From positions 1,255 through 35,302 of the forward strand of contig MTOH01000012.1 of NCBI GenBank assembly GCA_002011615.1: a stretch of DNA of 34,048 nucleotides, in the 5' to 3' direction. The notes beneath the pieces are model-generated. The model saw only the letters and a list, made by a program, of their open reading frames with translations, searched no databases and was not told the origin of the DNA. This stretch comes from Candidatus Hydrothermus pacificus (GTDB lineage: Bacteria; Hydrothermota; Hydrothermia; Hydrothermales; Hydrothermaceae). The position numbers were made by a program, and so were the translations under genes. This document shows positions 13,073-34,048 of this stretch, one piece after another (the stretch's first letter is position 1; each line of letters opens with the position of its first letter).

Positions 13073-13608
13073 GGACATTCATCGCAATTGAAATTCCTGA
13101 AAATATAAAAAACAAACTATATAATTCCTTTAATAAAGAAAGAGAAAAAACCGAAGGGGTGAGGTGGGTGGAGGAGAAAAATTTGCACATCACCCTTAAA
13201 TTCATAGGTGAAATAGAAGAAAGTAAGGTGTCCTTAATATCCAGAGTTCTGGAGGAAGTCAGGGATAAATTTAAAACATTTAAGGTATATTTAAAGGAAT
13301 CAGGAGCATTCCCTGATTTAAGGTTTCCAAGAGTTTTATGGGTCGGTATAGGTCCAGAAGAAAAAGTCAGGGAGCTCTTTGATTTTGTAGAAAAAAAACT
13401 TGAAAAAACAGGTATCCCGAGAGAAAAGAGAAATTTTCATCCCCATATAACAGTAGCCCGTGTAAAGAAAAGAGGCAAAATAAATTTTAAGAAAAAAAGC
13501 TTTGATGATGATTTTAAAATAAAAAAGATTGTCCTGTTTAAAAGTGAACTCAATCCAGAGGGACCGGTTTATACCCCTTTAAAAGAAGTGGAGTTAAAAG
13601 ATGGATAG
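13069..13608 (+). CDS. thpR: RNA 2',3'-cyclic phosphodiesterase (LigT/2H family)
   Basis: A 179-residue 2H phosphoesterase with both HxT motifs: LHITLKFIGE (His near 43) and HPHITVARV (His near 126). RTFIAIEIPENIK is the typical start, encoded from TTG 13069, which overlaps the zinc-ribbon stop codon. The enzyme hydrolyses 2',3'-cyclic phosphates to 2'-phosphates in RNA ends. It is the only complete gene here ending in TAG (13606-13608). That TAG lies within the kdsD start (ATGGATAG), and an in-frame TAA follows 15 bases later, so reading through would add only five residues. Confidence 0.92.
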   Translation: MRTFIAIEIPENIKNKLYNSFNKEREKTEGVRWVEEKNLHITLKFIGEIEESKVSLISRVLEEVRDKFKTFKVYLKESGAFPDLRFPRVLWVGIGPEEKVRELFDFVEKKLEKTGIPREKRNFHPHITVARVKKRGKINFKKKSFDDDFKIKKIVLFKSELNPEGPVYTPLKEVELKDG

Positions 13609-14572
13609 AGAAAGGATTATTAAAAAGGCAAAGGAGGTTATAGGGCTTGAAATTAAAGGTCTTCAGGGACTTTTTGATAGTATAAATGAGGATTTTTTAA
13701 AGGCTATAGAGCTTCTTATGTCCTGTGAAGGAAAGATAATAGTGACCGGGGTAGGAAAGTCGGGGATAATAGCCAAGAAGATTGCCTCTACTTTAACATC
13801 CACAGGAACACCTGCTCTATATCTTCATCCTTCAGAATCTCTTCACGGAGATATAGGGGTTGTTGACCAGAAAGATATTGTTATAGCAATTTCTAAAAGT
13901 GGAAGAACCGATGAGATAGCAATGATAATATCATTCTTAAAAAGGAGAAATATCCCTATAATAGCGATTACTTCCAATAGAAACTCAGAGCTTGCAAGAG
14001 AAAGCGACATATCTGTAATAATACAGGTTGAAAAAGAGGCCTGTCCTTTTGACCTGGCTCCCACTGTTAGCACAACAACTGTCCTTGCTCTTGGTGATGC
14101 CATTGCAATAATTCTCATGGATTTGAAGAGATTTAAGGCGGATGATTTTGCCGCTCTTCATCCCGGAGGCGATATAGGTAAAAAATTCTGGCTAAAGGTT
14201 AAGGATATGATGCTTACAGGCGAAAAAAATGTCCCGATAGTTAAACATGATGCCCCTATGAAAGATGTAATACTGGAGATGACCACCAAGAGAGGTATCA
14301 CTTCAGTGGTTGATGATAAAGGAAAACTTATTGGAGTCATAACTGACGGAGATTTAAGAAGATTACTTGAAAGGACAGACAGAGTTTTTTCCTTAACTGC
14401 AAAAGATGCGATGACCACCAATCCCAAGGTGATAGACCAGGATTCCCTTGCGGTTATCGCAGCAAAGAAAATGGAAAATTATGGAATTACTGCTCTCATA
14501 GTGATTGATGATGAGGAAAAACCCATAGGTATTATCCATCTTCACGACCTTATGAGAGAAAGAGTTATTTGA
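13601..14572 (+). CDS. kdsD: D-arabinose 5-phosphate isomerase (SIS + two CBS)
   Basis: A 323-residue protein with an SIS domain (about 1-190) and two CBS domains (about 205-323), the full KdsD/KpsF architecture. GVGKSGIIAKKIASTLTSTG, SESLHGDIGVV and APTVSTTTVLALGDAIA are the family landmarks around the active site. The enzyme interconverts ribulose 5-phosphate and arabinose 5-phosphate, the first step of Kdo synthesis. A GGAG lies 7 bases upstream of the start, and the gene overlaps thpR by 8 bases. Unlike the common kdsD-kdsC-lptC order, no kdsC phosphatase follows. Confidence 0.95.
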   Translation: MDRERIIKKAKEVIGLEIKGLQGLFDSINEDFLKAIELLMSCEGKIIVTGVGKSGIIAKKIASTLTSTGTPALYLHPSESLHGDIGVVDQKDIVIAISKSGRTDEIAMIISFLKRRNIPIIAITSNRNSELARESDISVIIQVEKEACPFDLAPTVSTTTVLALGDAIAIILMDLKRFKADDFAALHPGGDIGKKFWLKVKDMMLTGEKNVPIVKHDAPMKDVILEMTTKRGITSVVDDKGKLIGVITDGDLRRLLERTDRVFSLTAKDAMTTNPKVIDQDSLAVIAAKKMENYGITALIVIDDEEKPIGIIHLHDLMRERVI

Positions 14573-21769: not shown

Positions 21770-24700
21770 ATGAGAAGTATAATTTTAATAATTGTGTCTT
21801 TTATTGGGCTTTATGCCTAGGGTGGTTATCCATATAAGCCTTATCCAATTCTTTTTGTTCATGGTATCACAGGTTCTTCAAAAGATTGGGGAGTTAAAAT
21901 TTCTGATGATTGCCTTTTCCCAAGATGTGATACCATTAATAAAGACTCAATAATTTCCGGGCATACTTATGATAGGGTTTTACCTTTGATGATACCTTAT
22001 GCAAAGGTATGGTTTTTCATTGATTCATCTTATACTTGGGATGAGGCTCAACCAGCCTACCCCAACAAATCCTTTTTAGAGGTGATAAATTTTGCAGACC
22101 CTATGGGTTCATTAGACCCTGATCCAGACAATTATCCCGAGCCTTTTACAGGACAGGGAGATGAGCTTGTTAAAAGGATAAGGTCTGTTTTAAAGGAGTA
22201 TTACGGTGAGAATTGGCAGGGTAATCCAGATGCAAAGGTTATATTAATGGCGCATTCACAGGGTGGTGCTGTAGTGAGGGAGGCATTAAAAGAAGATACC
22301 ACATTAATTCCACATATTGCAAAGATAATAACTGCTAATACTCCGCATCTCGGTACATGTTTTGCGAATTTGGGTTTCAGGGACTGGATGATACTTTCAA
22401 TGGCGAACTGGCATCCTTATATACATCCTATAAAATGGGGGTTGGGTAATGCTTTTAAATGGCTCGGCAGGAAATTACCTCCTTGGCTTGTAAATCCTGT
22501 AGCGATTGATTTGAGGAATCATTGTATAAAGATAGGCGGCAGGTGGGTGATAAATTTAGAGGGGGATCAGATAGCAATGAAAATAATAGAGAAGATGCCA
22601 TCCGCACTTTTTGAGATTCCCGGTATTGGGGAGTATCTTACTGCTTTTGCGGTTTTGGAGGGTATTTTGGGTCCTGCTGCGGAGGCAATAGCAGAGATAT
22701 GGGGCAAAGAGGGATTTCATGTAAGTATAGGTTCAATACCTGATGATGGGGAGGGTTCGACATTTTTCCGACATTTAGGAACACATGGTGCCGGTAAAAT
22801 ACCATTTGTATGTATTTTGGGCAGGGGTTTTTATGATGACCATGAATATGCTTTTGATGTGCCTGTATTTGGGAAGACTACATGGGGTAAAATTGGTAAA
22901 TTTAACAGGTCAGGTTGGGCTTTGACTGCTGGTTATTGGACTCTTTCTGTATGGTTTCCGAAGCCCTTTTTAGAATGGGCAATTAAGTCAACTGCTTCAG
23001 AGCTTATGTGGGAGTGGTGGAATCAGGATTCGGATATGATAGTAAGGTGGGGTTCCCAGAGTGTGAATCATGTTTCAAGTGAATTTAGAGCGAGGGAGAT
23101 AAAGGAGTGGGGAATATATCACGGGCGTGTGCTTCAAAGATATGACCTTGTTCTAAAAGCCCTTGAAGACCGCCCTTTAATAGATTCTGTTATGCTTATT
23201 CAGACCTTTACAGATTCCCAGGGAGTTCAGAGAACTGATACTGTATATTTAACTGAAAATAAAATAGACACAATCATTACTTCTTTTGAAAATTTAAGAA
23301 TAGAGGGAAAGCTCAAAAAAACTCATTTCCTCCATATAAGTGCCCCAAAAATCTGGATAAATGAAGTGCCCACAGGCAAACTAAAATACCCTGAAAGATG
23401 CGGATATGAAGGCAGAAAATTCTTCATAGATTCAACCCATTTAAAATACCTGGGTGCAGGATATAATAGATTAAAAATAGTTTCAAAAAACGTAGTAGGT
23501 GAAGAATTTACAAGGAATTATACCTTGTGGATGGTGCCGAGTGGCTGGTTCTGCATGCAGGAAAGTCCTGATTATCGTTCTGTTTTAAAGAATTTACTTG
23601 AAAATGATACCTTTAAAATAAGACTTATTAAGCTGGGTCTCTCAGACTCCCTTAAAACAATTGCCTGGGATACATTAAAAGTTAATTTTGTAAATTTAAT
23701 TCAGGATACAAATGGCTGGTTTGTTCCGGATTCAACAGATACCCAATTTGTTTTAATTCCCAATAATTTATACTTTTATGAAGATGTTGAGGGTGTTTAT
23801 AATGATACCAATTATCTTTTATGTCCTGGAAAAAGATTAAATTTACCTTTTATAAATTTAAAAAATTTTTTAATAGATACCTTTAATATTCAAAATTTTG
23901 AAGGCATTTATAATTTTTATTATGTTGTCAATGACTCTTTTAAAACAGTAAAGAGTTTTCATCAATTTTATGTAGATAAAACACCACCTTTTGTGGAGAT
24001 TATAGGTCCTGAAGGGGTTTATTCAATTAATACCTCAAGGGGCGGACCATCGGACAGTATAGCAATAATTGCAAAGATAAAAGATAACTTTGAAACAGAG
24101 CTTTTAACCCCAAAAGATTTAATCTGGATATTAAAAACAGAAAAAGGAGATTCAATATATTCAAAATATTATGATGAACCGGGCTTTTATTATTATGAGG
24201 ATTTATTCATTGATTTTATTCCGAAAGAGGTCTTAAAAAATCTTGAAGACGGAAAATACTATGTTGAGATAAGAACTTGTGACAGGGCTGATAATGAATC
24301 TATTGAGGCAAGATACTTTAAGATTGATACGGGTCCTCCTGAAATTTATGTAATCCAGAAAATGGATTCAATTTTGACCAAAGATAAGGAATATCTTGAG
24401 TTTAAATTCAGGGTAAATGAATGGGCAAGATTTAAACTTGTTTTAAAAAATAAAAATGATACAACGATAAAATACATCAAAGAGGTAAATGCTTTGCCCC
24501 ATGTTTTTTATGATACGTTGATTTCCGAAGCAGAAATAACAGGTAATAAATTTGTAATTTTAAACGAGGAGATTGATGATGGGGTATATTTAATTTATGC
24601 AGAACTTACAGATTCAGCCGGTAATACAAGGGAATTAACCGGAAAGGAAATTTGCGGAAATAGCACTTTGAGAGTTGATAAAACACCGATTTCTTTAAAA

Positions 24701-27700
24701 GATATTTTTATTCAGCCTTTTGTAGGTGAGGATTTTATAAATCTTTCATTAAAGGCGGAGCAGATAAATGATAAACCGGAAAATAAAAAAGGCGGGGTAT
24801 TAAAGATTTTCATTGACAGTTTATTTATAAAGGATTTTGAATTTCCTTCTGATTCGGATACCATAAAAATTTATCATCAGTTTGATATTAAAAATTTATC
24901 CTATGGAAAACATATTCTTGAAATAGAAGCAGAAGACCCGTTCGGAAGCAAAACCCGTAAGAGTAAAGTATTTTTCAGAAATACTTATGGAACAGAAATT
25001 ACATTTCCTTTAAAGGATACTCTTAAAAGGGGGATGATTGTAATTGAGGGAAGGGTGTCTGACCCTGATATTTACGATAATTTACCCTTTAAGAATTTTG
25101 AAATATACTGGACCGATGTAAAAAATCCTGAAATTACACCTGACAGCATTGATAAAAATGTATGGCATTCTGAATTTCTCGAAGTGAGAGAAGATTTGCG
25201 AAAAGAAAATGAGCCTTTAAATTTCGGATTTAAAGAGGTAAATAGTGAAAATATAATTGCTTTTTTAAATTCAGGGGGTATATCACCCGGCAGGATAACC
25301 CTTCTTTTAATTTCAAGGGACCAGATGAACTCGGTTTGGGACACAGCTTCCTTTTATCTGGAAAAGGAATTTGCTCAAAATCCCGATATTGAGCTCTATC
25401 TGAAAGTGGAAAGACCCAAACAGGATACACCGGGTATGATTGAAGGGGTGCCAGGGGCAGGTGATACACTGCTACTTGATTTAACTAAGGGCGAAAAACT
25501 TGCTGGAACTTATTTTTTAAAGGGTGTTCCATCACAGGTTAAATTTCAAATTCTTTCACAGGATAATGAAATTTTATTTGAGGAAACTGACTAGGAAATT
25601 TATCCTGTGGATGGTATTCCCCAGAAATTTGATTCAACAGGATTTTATGTTTATTCTGAAGATGAAAAAAATCTTTATGTTGTTTTTAAAAGTGAAGATT
25701 CTGTTATTGCAGGTCTGGGTATAATTGCGGAAAAAATATTTGAGGTTGATTCAATTTATGTGGATTCTGGTTTTAATTCCTTTTTATATGAAAACAACCT
25801 GAATATTTTTGCCCTTGGTAAATTTGAGAATTTAAACAAATTAAGGGTTAATTTAAAGCCAGAAGTTGCGCTTAAAAAAGGATTTTTAAAGGTCTTTCTT
25901 GGGAAAAATCTTTATTCACCTGATAAAGATTCTTTTAATATAATTGGTAAGACACACCTATGGGACGGAAAAGTTTATCCTTCAGGCAATTTTGTTGTTC
26001 CTGGAAATTATAGAGTTAAAATTATTGCCTATGGGAAAAATGGGAACGGATATGTTGAGAAAGAAAAAATTATAAAAGTAAAGTCAAAGTTTGAAATTGA
26101 TACAGTGTATGTCCAGCCTCAGGAAATCACTGTTAATGATACTGCTTTATCAAAGGTCTCTTTATTTTTCAAGGCGAATATGGATTTAAAGGCAGATATT
26201 TTTGTAATAAATTCTGAGGGAAATGGGGTTGATACCCTATGTATTGATAAAGGATTTTACGGCTCCTGGAATACCCACTCAATTATATGGGATGCAGGTA
26301 AAAAACCTTTCATAGATAGCGGACTTTACAGGTTTAAACTCCTTTTAAGACCTTTGCATACAAATTTTGATACGGTTTTATATTCTCCGAATTTTAGAAT
26401 AATAAATGTTCCTGTGATTTACGATACTCTTGATTTGTATATACCTGATGAGTATGCTCAGGATACTCTCTCAGATAAAAAAATTTACGATGCAAAACCA
26501 GAATATCTATTTTCATTAAAGGCAAAGGGAAGATTAACACCGCCTTTACCTTTTAAAATTAATGTTGAAAGAAAATCAGCAAAAATGCCTTTAAAGGTTA
26601 AGTGGAGAGTGGATTATTATACGGTTGATGTTGATACGCAGATTAATATGGTTAGACGCTTTTATCCTGATAATCCTATAAAGATTATTGGTCCGGGCGA
26701 AACTTGGAATACCCCATCGGACAGAAAATTGATTAAGGTTGTAAGAATATTTGGAGATACGAGTCTTATAGAATATAATTTTGATGGCAAGGATTACTAT
26801 TTCGGTAATTCAAGAGAATGGAAAGGTGCAGGATGCTGTTATAATTGGCAGCCCAATCCAATAAGATGGGGAATTTTTGAGAATTATCTTTTTACAGATA
26901 CAATAAATTGTGGTGGTTATAAATGTAGAAAATTGGTTGAAGCAATAGAGCCTGCATGGGATTATCTTAAAATCTATGATTCCACAAAGATTGTTCCTGA
27001 TACCGAGCTTGTTATAACCGACTCCCTTCTCGGAATCTCAGATTCAGGAACCTTTTATATAGTTGATACCGGTGCTGTTTATAAAGCCTATACGAGTTTT
27101 TATCCTGCTCAAAGGGATTCCTAGGCATATAAGATAAATTTTATTCCCTTTTATCCGGTGTTTATAAAGAGTTATAAAATTTTCACATACATGAATCCAT
27201 ATACCGGAGATACCGTGGTTAGACATCTTGATAATTACTATCCGCTTTCACAAAAAATTGAAACAATTGATTCTATTTCACCTGATAGCGTAATAAAAGT
27301 GAGTTTACTTATAAAGGGACATACCCCGAGTAATTATATTATTGATACACTTATCAAATTTTATAAGATAAAAGTTGATACAGATATTTATATTCATAGA
27401 GATTTTAATGGTAATAAAATTTTTATTCAAGAAATTCCTGTTTATGCAAATGATACTCCGCAGGTTTTTGATAAACCAGTTGTAAAATGGAAACTAAAGG
27501 CAAAAGTTTTTTATGAAAATAATTTGCTTGAAGAGTTTGAAGATACTTTTCATATATCTGAAGATTTAAACAGGGAGGATGGGATTGTTGAAATAAAGTC
27601 AACTTCTGCCAACTTTTTCAGGGAATTGAGGTTTATCTTACCGGAAAGCAATATAGAATATTTCAATGAAAATGCTTTGATTAAAGATACATTAAAATGG

Positions 27701-30700
27701 AATGAAAATCAGAAAAAATATTTCCAAAAAATAAGGTCCCTTGATTTTCTTGAAAACTGGCAGGGAAGCAATCATTTTGTGAGTTATGCCTGTTCCCTTA
27801 TAACAGGGAAAGTTGCATTTAACGATACAGGTCCTTTACCGGATTCAGGAAGATGTATAGTAATAAAGCCTTCCCTGAATATAGAAGATACTTTATGGAC
27901 AAGTAAGGAGGATAAGTTTATTGATACAACCGGAATTTTGTATACAGAGTTTCCTGCAATTTTTGGAAATACATTCCCCGATTCAGGATATTTATCAAAG
28001 ACCTACATCTCTGAAAAGTATTTTGAAAATTATAAAGATTCTATACTTTCTCATCCTGAATACGGAGATTCTTTAAACCAGATGTTCAATTATGAAGTTC
28101 AAAATGATACCCTCTTTAAAAAATCAAACCCCTGTTTGAATATAACCGCTTATGATTCTTTGAGGATCTTTTATATAAACAAAAGATTGCACCATGATTT
28201 GTCAGGTGAAAAAACAGAATTTCATTATTCAGGCTATGGTCAGGGAATAAACGACTTTTTAAGACCTTATCTGAAACTTACCTATCATCCAAGAGAGTAT
28301 ATTCCTTTAAGGGGCAAATCCTTTACAGGAAGTTATAAGATTTATATAATGCGTGAAGATAAAATTTATCCTCAATATGACAGCCTTTTGAGTGCACCAG
28401 AAGGAGTTGATACAATTCTGGGATTTATAGAAGTTTCTGAGATGGGAGAAAACATAAAGGTTTTACTTTATGAATATCAGGGGGGCAGTTTAAGTCAGAT
28501 AAGATATAGAGATTTTCTTATAGGAGATTTGTTTGACCCTGATAAAAATAAGTTGATTGCAAAAAGTCCCTACGCAAGAGCGGTAATCAATTTTTCTCCA
28601 AATTCTTTTAACTCTCCTCAGATTACAGGTATATGTCCTCTTTATCCTGATTCAATGAAAATTGAAGGACCGCAGCCCTATATAGGCGGTAATTTTGGAC
28701 CGCTTCTTTATTTAAAACTAGGAGGTGCAAAGTTTTCTGAGCCAGAACAAAAGCCCACCCTCTATTATTACTTTACTCAAAGGGAAAAACAGGAATACAA
28801 CATTGATATTGAGAATATAAAAATTTATGCAGTAAAAGAAGATGGTTCTTTAATTCCTTTAAATACAATAGTTTCAGAAGACCCAGGTACGGGTGAAATA
28901 ACTTTGCAGGTTATGGCTGATTCTTTTCCTGGTGAAGGTGATACTCCTTATTTTGCAGCACTTTGTGAAAATGAAACAATGGATGGGAAGATTTTGATAA
29001 TTAAGGAAAGAATTTATAATGGTAATATATCCCTTGAAGGCGTATATATACCTTATACCCAGCAGAGAAGCCTGGATGTTTTGTTTGTAGGAACCAGGGA
29101 AAAATTAGAAAACATATATGATTTAAAGAAGTACATCCTTTCAGAAGTTCCTGATACTGTTTTAAGGGCATCTACATTAAGAGAGGATAACGAGTTTTAT
29201 TTTAACTTTGAGACCGATTTTGATACTCTTTATTATTTTATTCTACCCGGTGTCAATGAAAACTTCTTAAATCAATTTAAAGGAGAGATTAAGAATTTTC
29301 CCGTTGCAAAGGGGGTTCTGGTTGATACTGCATTTGAGATAAAAATTTTGCCTCCTGAAAACCCTTATACAGGAATTGTCCATAATGATTTAAAGTTTTA
29401 TGTCAACAAAGATGCCCTTGTCCATTATTACCTGAAAACTCTTTCAGGAGAGATTATAAAAGATACATTTTTCAATGCGCAGGCTTTTGATACAGTGTCA
29501 ATTTTATGGTATGGTAGAATAGGGAATCAGAAGGCAGAGGAAGGTGATTACCCCTATGAGATTGAAGGTTTTGCCCCAAGTGGTGAGACAGATTACAAGG
29601 AGGGGGTATGGCATGTAATATGGAACTACTACGCGGTTATATTAAATCCTGAAGATGGCTCATTTTTCATACCAGGGAATGATATTGTTTTAAATGCAAA
29701 AATTCTGGGCACGAATTTGCCTCTGGAATGGAGTGCATACTCTAAGTCTGGGTGGGAGTTCATAGGGATTCAGAGCGATACCCTTTCACCGGTTGTATGG
29801 CATATTCCACAGAATTATAAAATACCTCTTACATTGAAGGCTTCACCTTTAGTCCCAGGTGTTCCTGATTTTGCAAGGATTTATCCTGTAAGGGACAGTT
29901 TTCCGCCTTTAATAAGTATAATTCCCCTTTCAAATTTTTATCAGGGGAATATTTTATGGATTTCAGAAGGAGGACAGGTTCTTATAAATACAGAGGATAA
30001 TGAATCCAAAATAGAGACTTCCTATGTGCTTGTAAACAGTTTGCAAAAAATAGACTTTAAGGATTCTCTAATTTTAACATCGCAGGATTTAAATCCTGGT
30101 GAAAACAATGTTTATGTATATACAAAGGATGTAATGAACAATGAAAAAGACACAAGTTTTATTCTGGGCGTAGATAATTTTAAACCGAATGTTCAGGTAA
30201 AATTTGGTGAACCTTATTATGCGCAGGGAGATACCTTTTTTGTGACTCCCTCAACCCCTGAAACCCTGTTTGCACGGGATAACGGCTCGGGTATTAATTC
30301 AATATTTTATAAAATAAATAATGCAGGTTATAGCCAGATAAATGATTCAATTTATGTTATCAATATACAGAATCAGGGCCTGAACAGACTTTATCTTTAT
30401 TCTGTTGATAATTTGGGAAATAATTCTGAAACCCTTATGGTTTTTGTAAGGGTTGAAGTTCCTGGAACCGCCACTGTTAAGTTGACATTTCCCTATGATT
30501 CAATAATATTCAACCAGAGTTTTGCAATAAGGGGATGTGCCTATAATATACAGAAATGGAGAGTTTTATACGGATATGGTTCAAATCCTGCAAATTATAT
30601 TTTGCTGAAAGAGGGAAATAACCAGATTTATGATTCATTAACCCCGATTGATACATTTCCGCCCTCTGTAATTCCGGATGGTGTTTATACAATAAGACTG

Positions 30701-31882
30701 GAAGGGATAAGTTATCAGGATACCTTTTATGACGAAAGGGTTATTTATAAGGGAAATTTTGAAATTTACGATTCTGTCCAGACCCCCTCTTTTGGTAAAA
30801 TTTCAGGAGATGATAAATTTCTTTATTATGCATATGTTGATACAAGTAATCAGGTAATAATCTATCTGAGAAAATATCAGATAATGGACAGTTTAATTTT
30901 TATAAAAGAAGATACACTTCGGGATACAATTCCCTTTTATCATAATTTAACAGATATGTGCGTATTTCCTGATTATAAAATTTTTATCCTTTTTGATGCG
31001 GTACCTCATAAAGTCTCACAAAGACAGATGGATATGGGATATATATGGAAGGGCAAGGAAGGGATGTATACTCTTTTTTATTTTAATAGTTTCTTTGGAG
31101 AAAGTGATTATGAGAAAAATAGAATATATACAGTTGAAAGACTACCTTTTGGGAATATTCGCTTTTTCATAAGGGATACCACCAGTTTAGATTCTTTACT
31201 CTCTTTTGGAAATTTTGAAAACCCAGTCTCAGGTTTTGCAGTCAGGGATTCTGTTTGCTATTATTCTCCTGATTTTGGCAATAAAATTTATTTTTTAAAA
31301 ACAGGAGAAAATATTCCCTTTGATAGTATAAATCATTATGCTGAAAGGCTTTTTATAGACAATAAGGGTCTTTTATGGGGAACCGCAGGGAGCGAGGTTT
31401 TCTGCTTCTCACCTTTTAAAGAGAAAATATTTTCCCAGAATATGGAGTGGGTTAATAGTTCTTTTTATGTTGTTAAAAATTATCTATTCATTTTATCGGG
31501 AAATAAGATCTGTTTTTACGGTTATAATATTCAGGATAAGATGTATTTAATGACTTCTCTTTCCGTAAATAAATCTTTAAAAATCCAGAAACTCTTTGCC
31601 TACCCTTCCCTTTATAATCCTGAGAAAGGATTTTTAAAAATAAACTTTTATCTACCAGCAGAAAATAGCGGAGAAGTCTTGATTTACACCCTTTCAGAAA
31701 AACTGGTTAAGAGAATAAAATTTTATGGAAAAAGGGGATTAAACACTATTTTATGGGACGGAAGAAATGAGATGGGTTTACCTGTAAGAAACGGGGTTTA
31801 TGTTGCCCTTGTAAAGGTTAAAAACGGATTTTTTAAGGATGAAAAGTATACAAAGTTTATTTTAAGGAGATGGAAACCTTAA
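21770..31882 (+). CDS. Giant secreted alpha/beta-hydrolase and Ig-repeat protein with three in-frame TAG codons
   Basis: One frame of 3,370 codons from ATG 21770 (GAAGG 7 bases before it) to TAA 31882, broken only by TAG at codons 17, 1275 and 1785. Codons 1-16 are a signal peptide (MRSIILIIVSFIGLYA). A lipase-like alpha/beta hydrolase follows: FVHGITGS near 30, nucleophile elbow MAHSQGG near 160 and NTPHLGT near 190. The middle is made of Ig-like and FlgD-like beta domains (for example KTPPFVEIIGPEG and HLWDGKVYPSGNFV). A ZU5-like piece lies near 2300-2420, an NHL-like propeller near 3000-3265 and a FlgD-like Ig domain at about 3290-3370 (LNTILWDGRNEMGLPVRNGVYV), which often serves surface sorting. 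Without read-through or correction only a 16-residue peptide is made. The intact frame between ambers argues against a decayed gene. PorV-like and propeller genes follow directly. Confidence 0.85.
21818..21820 (+). other. In-frame TAG 1, at the signal-peptide end of the giant gene
   Basis: Codon 17, context GCC TAG GGT. It follows GLYA, a good signal-peptidase site. Reading CAG gives YAQGGYPYKP, a natural mature N-terminus. The frame continues with FVHGITGS, which is essential to the hydrolase, so the TAG is within the gene and not its end. Confidence 0.85.
25592..25594 (+). other. In-frame TAG 2, in the giant gene
   Basis: Codon 1275, context GAC TAG GAA. The next ATG in the same frame is 25607, with no SD, and sense codons EIYPVDGIPQ lie directly after the TAG. 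Reading CAG gives EETDQEIYPVDG. Confidence 0.8.
27122..27124 (+). other. In-frame TAG 3, in the giant gene
   Basis: Codon 1785, context TCC TAG GCA (CCTAGG). The same frame continues as AYKINFIPFYPVF without a gap, SD or good start. Reading CAG gives RDSQAYKINF. Confidence 0.8.
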
Positions 31883-32694
31883 TTTTATTTTTAATCCTTC
31901 AAACAGGAGGAATGGGTGTAGATATTTTTGAACTTTCGGGTTCTGCAAGGGCAAAGGGTATGGGTGATGCCTTTGCCTCTGTTGCAGATGATGCGAGTTC
32001 TATTTTTTACAATCCTGCAGGGATTTTGAATACCGAGAAGTTCAGAATTCTTTACATGCATTCAGAACTTGCCTTTGAAAGTTATTTTGATAATGTATCA
32101 TTTGTTAAAAAACCTTTCGGAATTTCCTATCTCAGACTTGTCTCAAGTGATATTCCATATATTGTTTCAAAAGATACAAATATTTACGATACCACAGATT
32201 TGTATATAGAAAGAATCAATTATATTTCCCATGGAATTTATGTTTCCTCTGGTTTTTCTTTTAAGTCTTTTAACATTGGAGCAAACTTTAAAGTTTTTGA
32301 ACAGAGAACAAAATATTTTAAAGAAAAAGATTATAAGTTTGATCTGGGATTTTTTAAAAACTTTGAAATTCTGAGTTCAGGCATTCTTTTAAGGGATATG
32401 GACTTTAAGGGTAATGATTACTCCTTTTTATACTTTGGTTTATCATCTTTAATTTTTAAAGAAATTCTGATTTCCCTGGAGATAGAAAGGCCCTTTAAAA
32501 AAGATGTTTATAAATTTAAATCAGGATTTGAATGGAATTTTTCAAAATATTTTAAATTAAGGGGTGGAATTAAGGAAGGAGATTTCACAATAGGTGCGGG
32601 TATTTTAACAAAGTTTGTGGAGGTGGATTATGCCTTTATCATGCATTCTGAAATACCTTCTTCTCACAGGATTTCTGTTGAATTTTTCTTTTAA
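31870..32694 (+). CDS. PorV/PorQ-like outer-membrane beta-barrel protein
   Basis: A 274-residue protein. After a short hydrophobic start (METLILFLIL) comes LSGSARAKGMGDAFASVADDASSIFYNPAGI, the hallmark of the PorV/PorQ (UPF0164) group, followed by alternating beta strands and the C-terminal HRISVEFFF, which ends in an aromatic as outer-membrane barrels do. PorV-type proteins act as shuttle or anchor partners for type IX secretion cargo. Adjacency to a giant protein with a FlgD-like C-terminus fits that role, though no Por secretion core is in the window. ATG 31870 overlaps the giant gene by 13 bases, with AAGGAG directly abutting it. The internal ATG 31912 behind AGGAGG is less likely because it would remove the signal sequence. 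Confidence 0.8.
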   Translation: METLILFLILQTGGMGVDIFELSGSARAKGMGDAFASVADDASSIFYNPAGILNTEKFRILYMHSELAFESYFDNVSFVKKPFGISYLRLVSSDIPYIVSKDTNIYDTTDLYIERINYISHGIYVSSGFSFKSFNIGANFKVFEQRTKYFKEKDYKFDLGFFKNFEILSSGILLRDMDFKGNDYSFLYFGLSSLIFKEILISLEIERPFKKDVYKFKSGFEWNFSKYFKLRGGIKEGDFTIGAGILTKFVEVDYAFIMHSEIPSSHRISVEFFF

Positions 32695-33385
32695 AGAAAA
32701 AAGGGAGATAAAAATTGATTTTTCTGCACAAAGAATAACCCTTTTAAAGGATAAAATCGTTTTATACGGAGAAGGAAACATTTACTTTATAGATAAAAGG
32801 GGGGAGATAATTTTTTCAATTCCTGTTTTAGGATTTGAAAAGGGCAAAATTTCAGAATTTTTTGATTTTACAATAGATGGAAATAACCTTTTTATTCTTG
32901 GTAGAGAAAAGGTGGTAAGTTATAATTCTCATGGTGAATTTTTAAACGAATTTTATACAGACTTACCCCGTCCTTTTTTAATAGACGCAAGTTTTCCCTT
33001 TGGAATTTTTGTGTTTGATAAAGCACTCCAGAAGGTAATAAGATATGATTTTGATGGAAGAAAGAAAGGAGAATTTTATGTAAAATCCGAAAATATAAAG
33101 GATATGGATATAGACGAAAGTTATATTTATTTTTATGATGAAAAAGGGAAAATGTTTGTTTACAATTTTTATGGAAATAAGGTAAAGGAATTCAAATTGA
33201 TTTACGGCAAAAAAATAGAAGTTGAAAAAGGACTTATATTCTTAATGGATGGAAGTGGTTTGAAAGTTTTTGATGAGGACAGAGAAATATATTCTGAGAG
33301 GATAGCTTTGAGGGACATACATTTGAAAGAGGATAATCTGTACATTTTATCTGAAAACATTGAAGTAAGGAGATTTGAAAGATGA
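32630..33385 (+). CDS. Secreted NHL-like beta-propeller protein
   Basis: A 251-residue protein of propeller blades about 40 residues apart: ITLLKDKIVLYGEGNIYFID, FTIDGNNLFILGREKVVSYN, IRYDFDGRKKGEFYVK, MDIDESYIYFYDEKGKMFVYN and VFDEDREIYSERIA. The pattern (strand, D-x-x-G turn, V/F-strand) is that of 6-bladed NHL-type proteins. ATG 32630 is preferred over the TTG at 32615 because GGAGG lies 6 bases before it and the first 20 residues (MPLSCILKYLLLTGFLLNF) form a signal sequence. It overlaps the PorV-like gene by 65 bases, an unusually long same-strand overlap. Function unknown; probably an envelope scaffold. Confidence 0.75.
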   Translation: MPLSCILKYLLLTGFLLNFSFKEKREIKIDFSAQRITLLKDKIVLYGEGNIYFIDKRGEIIFSIPVLGFEKGKISEFFDFTIDGNNLFILGREKVVSYNSHGEFLNEFYTDLPRPFLIDASFPFGIFVFDKALQKVIRYDFDGRKKGEFYVKSENIKDMDIDESYIYFYDEKGKMFVYNFYGNKVKEFKLIYGKKIEVEKGLIFLMDGSGLKVFDEDREIYSERIALRDIHLKEDNLYILSENIEVRRFER

Positions 33386-34048
33386 ACCTATTTATTTTAA
33401 TTTTAATAATAAATTCTTCATCTGAAAAAATTGAAATAAAAGGAAGCAAAGGAATATTTTATGAAACAAGGGACTTTTCAGGAAACTATCCCTAGGGTTT
33501 TTATCCCTATTCTTTAAGACAGGAATATCTAAAATTGAATTTAAAGGGGTTTTTAAGGTTTTCTACTCAAATAAATGGTGAAATAATGCAGAATTCAAAT
33601 CCTTTAAAAGAGGACCATATATTTTTAAGTTTAAAAAATCCCTATTTCTTTTTAAATCTTGGAGACCAGAAGGTATTTCTTGAAGAAAATTCTCTTTTAC
33701 TTTCAAAAACATACAATCAGGGAGCAATGGGTAAGATTTTTTATAAAAATATAGAGGGAGGATTCATATATACAAGGGCAAAGGGTAAGAATCTTTATAA
33801 AAGGTTCAGGGGGAATAATACCCAGGGTCCTTTTTATCTTGACCCTGCTCCTTTGATTCAGGAAAGTGAAAGAGTTAGGATAATAAAGGAGGGGAAGTAT
33901 CAGGATTTGAAAAGAGGAATGGATTATGAAATTGATTGTTTTTCTGGGACGATAACATTTTTGAACAGGATAGTTAAAGAAGATGAAATTGTTGAGGTTT
34001 TTTATCAAAGTAAGGAAGAGAATCTGAATGAAATTTATGGTTTCAGAG
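33382..34048 (+). CDS. Surface/outer-membrane protein with in-frame TAG, cut by right edge
   Basis: A frame from ATG 33382 (AAGGAG 9 bases upstream, overlapping the previous stop as ATGA) stays open to the end of the window except for TAG at codon 38, giving 222 codons. The first 14 residues (MNLFILILIINSSS) look like a short signal peptide. The later part contains GPFYLDPAPLIQESERVRI and KRGMDYEIDCFSGTITFLNRIV. This is an order of elements (SErVxxxGxxLxRGxDYxIDYxxGxIxF) I associate with SprA-like and other large surface proteins of FCB bacteria, from memory only. The C-terminus is missing, so size and function are open. Conventional translation would end after 37 residues. Confidence 0.75.
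33493..33495 (+). other. In-frame TAG 4, in the last gene
   Basis: Codon 38, context CCC TAG GGT (CCCTAGGG). Open frame GFYPYSLRQEYLKLNL continues directly after it and stays open for 184 more codons. Reading CAG gives NYPQGFYPYSL. An intact ACC CAG GGT occurs later in the same gene near 33821. Confidence 0.8.

Follow-up and report, generated by a model that had tools for sequence, protein, structure and literature searches.

In-frame TAG codons of a large gene in Candidatus Hydrothermus pacificus and their probable origin in base changes at CCAGG

In-frame TAG codons in otherwise open genes accompany the recoding of UAG as pyrrolysine, which depends on PylS and tRNA-Pyl and occurs in archaea and some bacteria. 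In code 15-type phage recoding, TAG is read as Gln. In-frame TAGs of similar appearance occur in the 34,048-nt stretch of Candidatus Hydrothermus pacificus DNA analysed here (the window). However, as opposed to pyrrolysine users, the genome has no PylS and no CUA tRNA, TAG is not depleted as a stop, and the residues at the TAG sites are variable or Gln in homologues. In MsrB, a TAG stands in the place of Gln, which resembles code 15-type recoding, but the genome is cellular, has RF1 and no suppressor tRNA, and its in-frame TAGs lie largely in CTAGG.

Two other kinds of described systems are closer to the present case. In-frame stops of bacteria have been reported to be under purifying selection (Belinky et al. 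2021, PMC7918605), with the frame open past the stop, as in our locus; the stops studied here differ in sharing one DNA motif and in being accompanied by changes of other residues. In native nanopore sequences of Dcm-methylated DNA, CCAGG/CCTGG sites are a focus of consensus errors (PMC6591954), and Kit 14 data widely show R/Y transition errors at strain-specific motifs (PMC11610573). Like these errors, the changes described below are transitions in a short motif that are blind to coding. In contrast, no Dcm-type methylase was found here, and the change is from CCAGG to CTAGG only.

A large gene with in-frame TAG codons

The frame at 21770-31882 consists of 3370 codons followed by TAA, and its only stops, at codons 17, 1275 and 1785, are all TAG. 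Translation thus agrees with the preliminary description of this DNA, which had claimed one frame with TAG at these codons and no frameshift. Such an open frame is beyond chance, as an unselected 10-kb sequence at 35% GC would carry many stops of all three kinds. Residues 1-2908 align to the homologue of the same-order relative G003 in one HSP (44% identity), which passes all three TAG sites, bearing out the earlier claim that protein features run across each TAG. The G003 homologue is one ORF of 4227 aa without a stop, and the genome G044 also has a long open frame for the large gene. Since the G003 homologue is a single uninterrupted ORF, 21770-31882 is, judged by this comparison, one ordinary protein-coding gene. 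Homologues that are truly separate genes with their own starts, which the preliminary description had named as evidence to the contrary, are thus not what G003 shows. The only candidate starts after the TAGs in the ORF list are TTG 21986, GTG 25607 and GTG 27158. Conserved residues GGYPYKPYPILFVHG are found already upstream of TTG 21986, the earliest of them, which disfavours a division into separate genes.

The first 600 residues of the large protein match the PGAP1 and DUF676 hydrolase profiles, and its N-terminal part is predicted to be a PGAP1/DUF676-like alpha/beta hydrolase. A search of the genome contigs with this hydrolase part revealed no relative. Most genomes of the phylum contain proteins that match its C-terminal ~90 residues, which would fit a sorting or anchoring domain. 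The product of the gene is probably a large, secreted protein.

The gene order around the large gene is equal to that in G003: the products of 313, 4227, 274, 250 and at least 662 aa in the latter correspond to products of 287, 3370, 274, 256 and at least 222 aa in the window (Table 1). The last of these genes contains the fourth in-frame TAG of the window, at 33493, which was absent from the preliminary description.

Table 1. Genes and CTAGG sites discussed in the text (positions of the window unless a locus is named)
Feature	Position	Strand	Observation
Upstream cluster gene, 287 aa	20891..21754	+	In G003, a 313-aa homologue lies ahead of the intact gene
Large multi-domain gene split by three TAG	21770..31882	+	Translation and homology; single gene in G003
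CTAGG in CCTAGG, TAG codon 17 at 21818	21817..21821	+	G004 has CCCAG (Gln) there
CTAGG, TAG codon 1275 at 25592	25591..25595	+	Homologue residues A, D, Y, Y
CTAGG in CCTAGG, TAG codon 1785 at 27122	27121..27125	+	Homologue residues K or G
CTAGG in Leu-Gly frame, no stop	28718..28722	+	Relative has Pro at Leu (28719)
Downstream gene, 274 aa, UPF0164-like	31870..32694	+	274-aa ORF in the same place in G003
Later cluster gene with in-frame TAG at 33493, runs off the window	33382..34047	+	G003 copy intact over 662 aa
CTAGG in CCTAGG, TAG at 33493	33492..33496	+	G003 has Lys (AAG)
msrAB in-frame TAG	L059:14960 = G000:C11:34959		CTAGG context

TAG and in-frame stops in the rest of the genome

The genome is a 2.06-Mb, 19-contig draft that is 95% complete, and our sample of it comprised 41 stretches that add up to 826 kb with the window counted in, roughly 40% of the total. 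Among the proteins of the window, that at 13601-14572 has its best named match in a candidate division WOR-3 MAG (63% identity), so that the genome probably belongs to this phylum. The preliminary description had offered two alternatives, that TAG codes for an amino acid here or that the bases are misleading, and had proposed a search for a CUA tRNA and for the pyrrolysine genes. RF1 is present (prfA, 467.8 bits vs. a cut-off of 423.25), its PVT and GGQ motifs being normal, and the genome also has RF2. None of the 46 tRNAs over the cut-off in the 95% complete genome has the CUA anticodon, their anticodons being ordinary throughout, which speaks against general TAG decoding, and PylS is absent at its cut-off (best match 22 bits vs. 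178). A loose pattern search for CUA tRNA-like sites gave chance matches only, fewer than the backward control, and the tRNA genes among these matches all carry other anticodons. In the examination for a CUA tRNA, 150 of 205 candidates were scored. The anticodon arm of tRNA-Gln(CUG) appeared regular by eye, with a 5-bp stem. In the 826-kb sample, TAG ends 78 of the 602 ORFs that reach 150 aa or more (13%), as compared with 6 to 10% in three relatives. TAG works as a normal stop in this genome, and there is no sign of its general decoding as sense, so that the first of the two alternatives is disfavoured.

A tRNA-Ala-like gene at L055:11438-11508 (G000:C1:271437) is read by ARAGORN as having a four-base anticodon, cgca, and its fold has a 6-nt loop; it could be an odd real tRNA or the result of a one-base assembly error.

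In-frame stops were identified with a hexamer coding model and homology, a codon-only coding score having been dropped as too weak. The 826-kb sample contains eight convincing in-frame TAGs. Four of them belong to the window, and single ones were found in msrAB, in a large repeat protein (L066), in a 404-aa protein that matches nothing in Pfam (L070) and in a katG-like gene (L100:14645-16738, minus strand), which has also lost its C-terminus. The frame of L070 was at first guessed to be RtcB-like, but this was abandoned as it had no Pfam match. The TAG site of the katG-like gene, which we take to be usually Trp in homologues, lies in a gene that is probably decaying and may be a true pseudogene. 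One in-frame TAA (L053) is located in what we read from the sequence as an apparent depolymerase fragment. TAG thus accounts for 8 of the 9 convincing in-frame stops (p = 2e-4 with all substitutions equally likely). We initially took this excess as evidence of recoding, but dropped it, because it shrinks when transitions alone are allowed (p = 0.06).

The homology results extend over about 400 kb of subject sequence, and in our reading their sole clear gene interruptions are the window's four TAGs; the remaining reported stops belong to antisense frames, to rRNA or to extensions upstream of genes. The 315 kb covered by homology yielded no frameshift. In-frame stops are also present in the relatives G001 and G004, where TAA or TGA predominate, indicating that some background of in-frame stops exists in these assemblies. 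In G004, in-frame TAA/TAG codons are present in genes of cysteinyl-tRNA synthetase, lumazine synthase, dihydroorotase and TPR proteins (L153:10984 and L148:9394-12879); such stops in essential genes are unlikely to be real and are probably base errors of another type.

The CCAGG-to-CTAGG pattern

All four in-frame TAGs of the window, as well as that of msrAB, are in the C-TAG-G context. This makes 5 of the 8 convincing in-frame TAGs of the 826-kb sample, vs. 5.3% of CAG codons in the C_G context (p = 2e-5); the 3 TAGs outside CTAGG are individually unexplained. The tetranucleotide CTAG is about tenfold under-represented, with 49 sites in 826 kb, of which 32 are CTAGG or its complement; one CTAGG site is in 16S rRNA. 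The CTAGG:CCAGG ratio is about 3-fold above that of relatives (p = 2e-4), and five CTAGG sites occur locally in a span of 13 kb (p = 1e-4), a clustering that is biased upward, as the window was picked for its TAGs. The whole-genome count was made with CCTAGG, which is not especially common here in comparison with the rest of the phylum. At six of its 15 sites, TAG falls in frame within an apparent gene, including two new cases, at codon 17 of a gene for a membrane protein (L214:1503) and in a gene for a large, probably secreted protein (L218:1503). Site counts of these motifs are small throughout. Another motif, GGATCC, is unusually rare in this genome (G000), with 33 sites vs. 150 to 200 in same-order relatives.

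The distribution of the sites among reading frames tells what kind of change is involved. On the sense strand, the numbers of sites in the stop, Leu and xCN frames are 5/7/4 for CTAGG, 180/153/127 for CCAGG and 0/14/9 for CTAGH; in other words, the stop frame takes 5 of 16 CTAGG and 180 of 460 CCAGG sites, vs. none of 23 other CTAG sites. The CTAGG frames match the CCAGG frames, so the CTAGG sites resemble CCAGG sites in which the second base was replaced regardless of meaning, with no selection by frame.

The residues found in relatives point in the same direction. Where Leu CTA precedes GG, 2 of 3 best-hit alignments show Pro in relatives, vs. 5 of 487 for other CTA codons (p = 5e-4). Examples of Pro to Leu are at 28719 in the large gene, in pyruvate phosphate dikinase (PPDK; L056:13176) and in an M42-like peptidase (L056:19457). 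The dikinase reads VP[L]GFT here vs. VP[P]GFT in G003, and the best-matching solved PPDKs have Gln at this position. The sequence GE[L]GIGKT at L104:3636 resembles a Walker A motif, which presumably reads GEPGIGKT as a rule. Among the TAGs, the MsrB position is Gln in 27 of 29 homologues (22 CAG, 5 CAA), and the DNA around codon 17 is CTTTATGCCCAG in the relative G004 vs. CTTTATGCCTAG in the window, with GCCCAG and GCCTAG, respectively, at the codon itself. The alignment with relatives that the preliminary description had suggested thus gave Gln at codon 17, but not at codons 1275 and 1785 (Table 1). As the replacement of Pro by Leu is beyond any UAG decoding rule, a base change in CCAGG accounts for the Leu codons and the stops alike. 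The C-to-T change in CCAGG is blind to function and is not a TAG-specific decoding. The corresponding CCTGG-to-CTTGG change was not seen (1/226), and symmetric CCWGG methylation, which we also considered, is unsupported, there being no Pro excess at CTTGG.

Origin of the changed bases

Wrong or freshly changed bases are more likely than a new genetic code, and the second alternative of the preliminary description, misleading bases, is favoured by the CCAGG-to-CTAGG pattern and by its extension to Pro-to-Leu sites. In our view, the in-frame TAGs are probably consensus base errors at CCAGG, for example at a modified cytosine. The cytosine in CCAGG would be written as T, turning C-CAG-G (Gln) into C-TAG-G at the three TAGs of the large gene and at 33493, and elsewhere in the genome the same change replaces Pro by Leu or falls on xCN positions. 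A consensus error at this motif is the likeliest cause, and could stem, for instance, from miscalling of a modified cytosine when native long reads are used; in that case, the gene would consist of sense codons in the cell and be translated normally. Motif specificity, the lack of selection by frame, Gln or Pro in relatives and the ordinary role of TAG as a stop are directly shown by the data, whereas sequencing error as the cause and base modification as its source are what we infer. Against base errors count the lack of frameshifts over 315 kb, unlike in older nanopore assemblies, the one-sidedness of the effect, the ordinary frequency of CCTAGG for the phylum, the 3 of 8 TAGs off the motif, and the small number of sites.

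A further point against base errors is that no DNA 5mC methylase was found, the sole PF00145 match being in an ORF that we read as RlmI-like. DNA methylases of the N4/N6 type are present, and one of them contains a TSPPY motif and may be an m4C enzyme; none of them could be tied to CCAGG. On the contig of the window, an N4/N6-type methylase adjoins a DpnII-family restriction enzyme (L065:6576-9231; G000:C8:81575-84230), and elsewhere an HpyAIV-like restriction enzyme adjoins a CcrM-like methylase (L258:548-2379; G000:C4 near 175000). The latter, GANTC-type (HpyAIV-like) restriction-modification system was rejected as the source, as it is unrelated to CCAGG.

The motif and residue evidence would also fit with real C-to-T hotspot mutations, recent or segregating, which would arise by deamination of a modified cytosine in CCAGG and would leave several genes broken. 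Some genes indeed look decayed (the katG-like gene L100 and the depolymerase-like fragment L053 with its TAA), and G001 and G004 likewise have in-frame stops. However, the 10-kb gene and the 315 kb covered by homology are free of frameshifts, whereas decaying genes gather indels, the lack of selection by frame at CTAGG is hard to reconcile with fixed mutations, and the 5mC methylase was not found. We therefore regard real mutations as unlikely, if still worth serious consideration. It is distinctly improbable that C-UAG-G is read through as Gln by a normal or an undetected tRNA-Gln, giving a low-level product from the DNA as written. Every in-frame TAG of the window is C-TAG-G, none of the true ORF ends in the sample has this context, the MsrB site is Gln in relatives, and nothing else breaks the frame over 10 kb. 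But CTAG is avoided genome-wide, which makes its absence at true stops uninformative, Pro to Leu at the same motif cannot arise by decoding, RF1 and the anticodon stem of tRNA-Gln(CUG) look normal with no suppressor tRNA seen, and three readthrough events in one gene would leave very little product. Slightly more doubtful still is a rule by which UAG is generally a stop but Gln in C-UAG-G, owing to a property of tRNA-Gln(CUG), RF1 or the ribosome, with several large secreted proteins and MsrAB being expressed in this way.

A genome-wide reassignment of TAG to Gln or pyrrolysine would explain why 8 of the 9 convincing in-frame stops are TAG under equal substitutions, but this excess is unremarkable with transitions alone, and TAG ends more ORFs here than in relatives in a genome with RF1, no CUA tRNA and PylS below the cut-off. 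Such a reassignment is largely refuted and very improbable. Hardly credible at all is the division of the large gene into separate genes: although ORFs start mechanically at the TTG and the two GTG codons listed above, the single G003 ORF aligns across the three junctions and the long frame of G044 is open, which refutes it.

If base errors at CCAGG are the source of the in-frame TAGs, the present case illustrates that metagenome assemblies can imitate stop-codon recoding. A simple comparison of how a suspect motif and its parent motif are distributed among frames distinguishes a function-blind base change from codon reassignment, and could be extended to in-frame TAGs reported from other uncultured organisms. 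If, on the other hand, the bases of Candidatus Hydrothermus pacificus are real, context-dependent decoding of UAG would be new.
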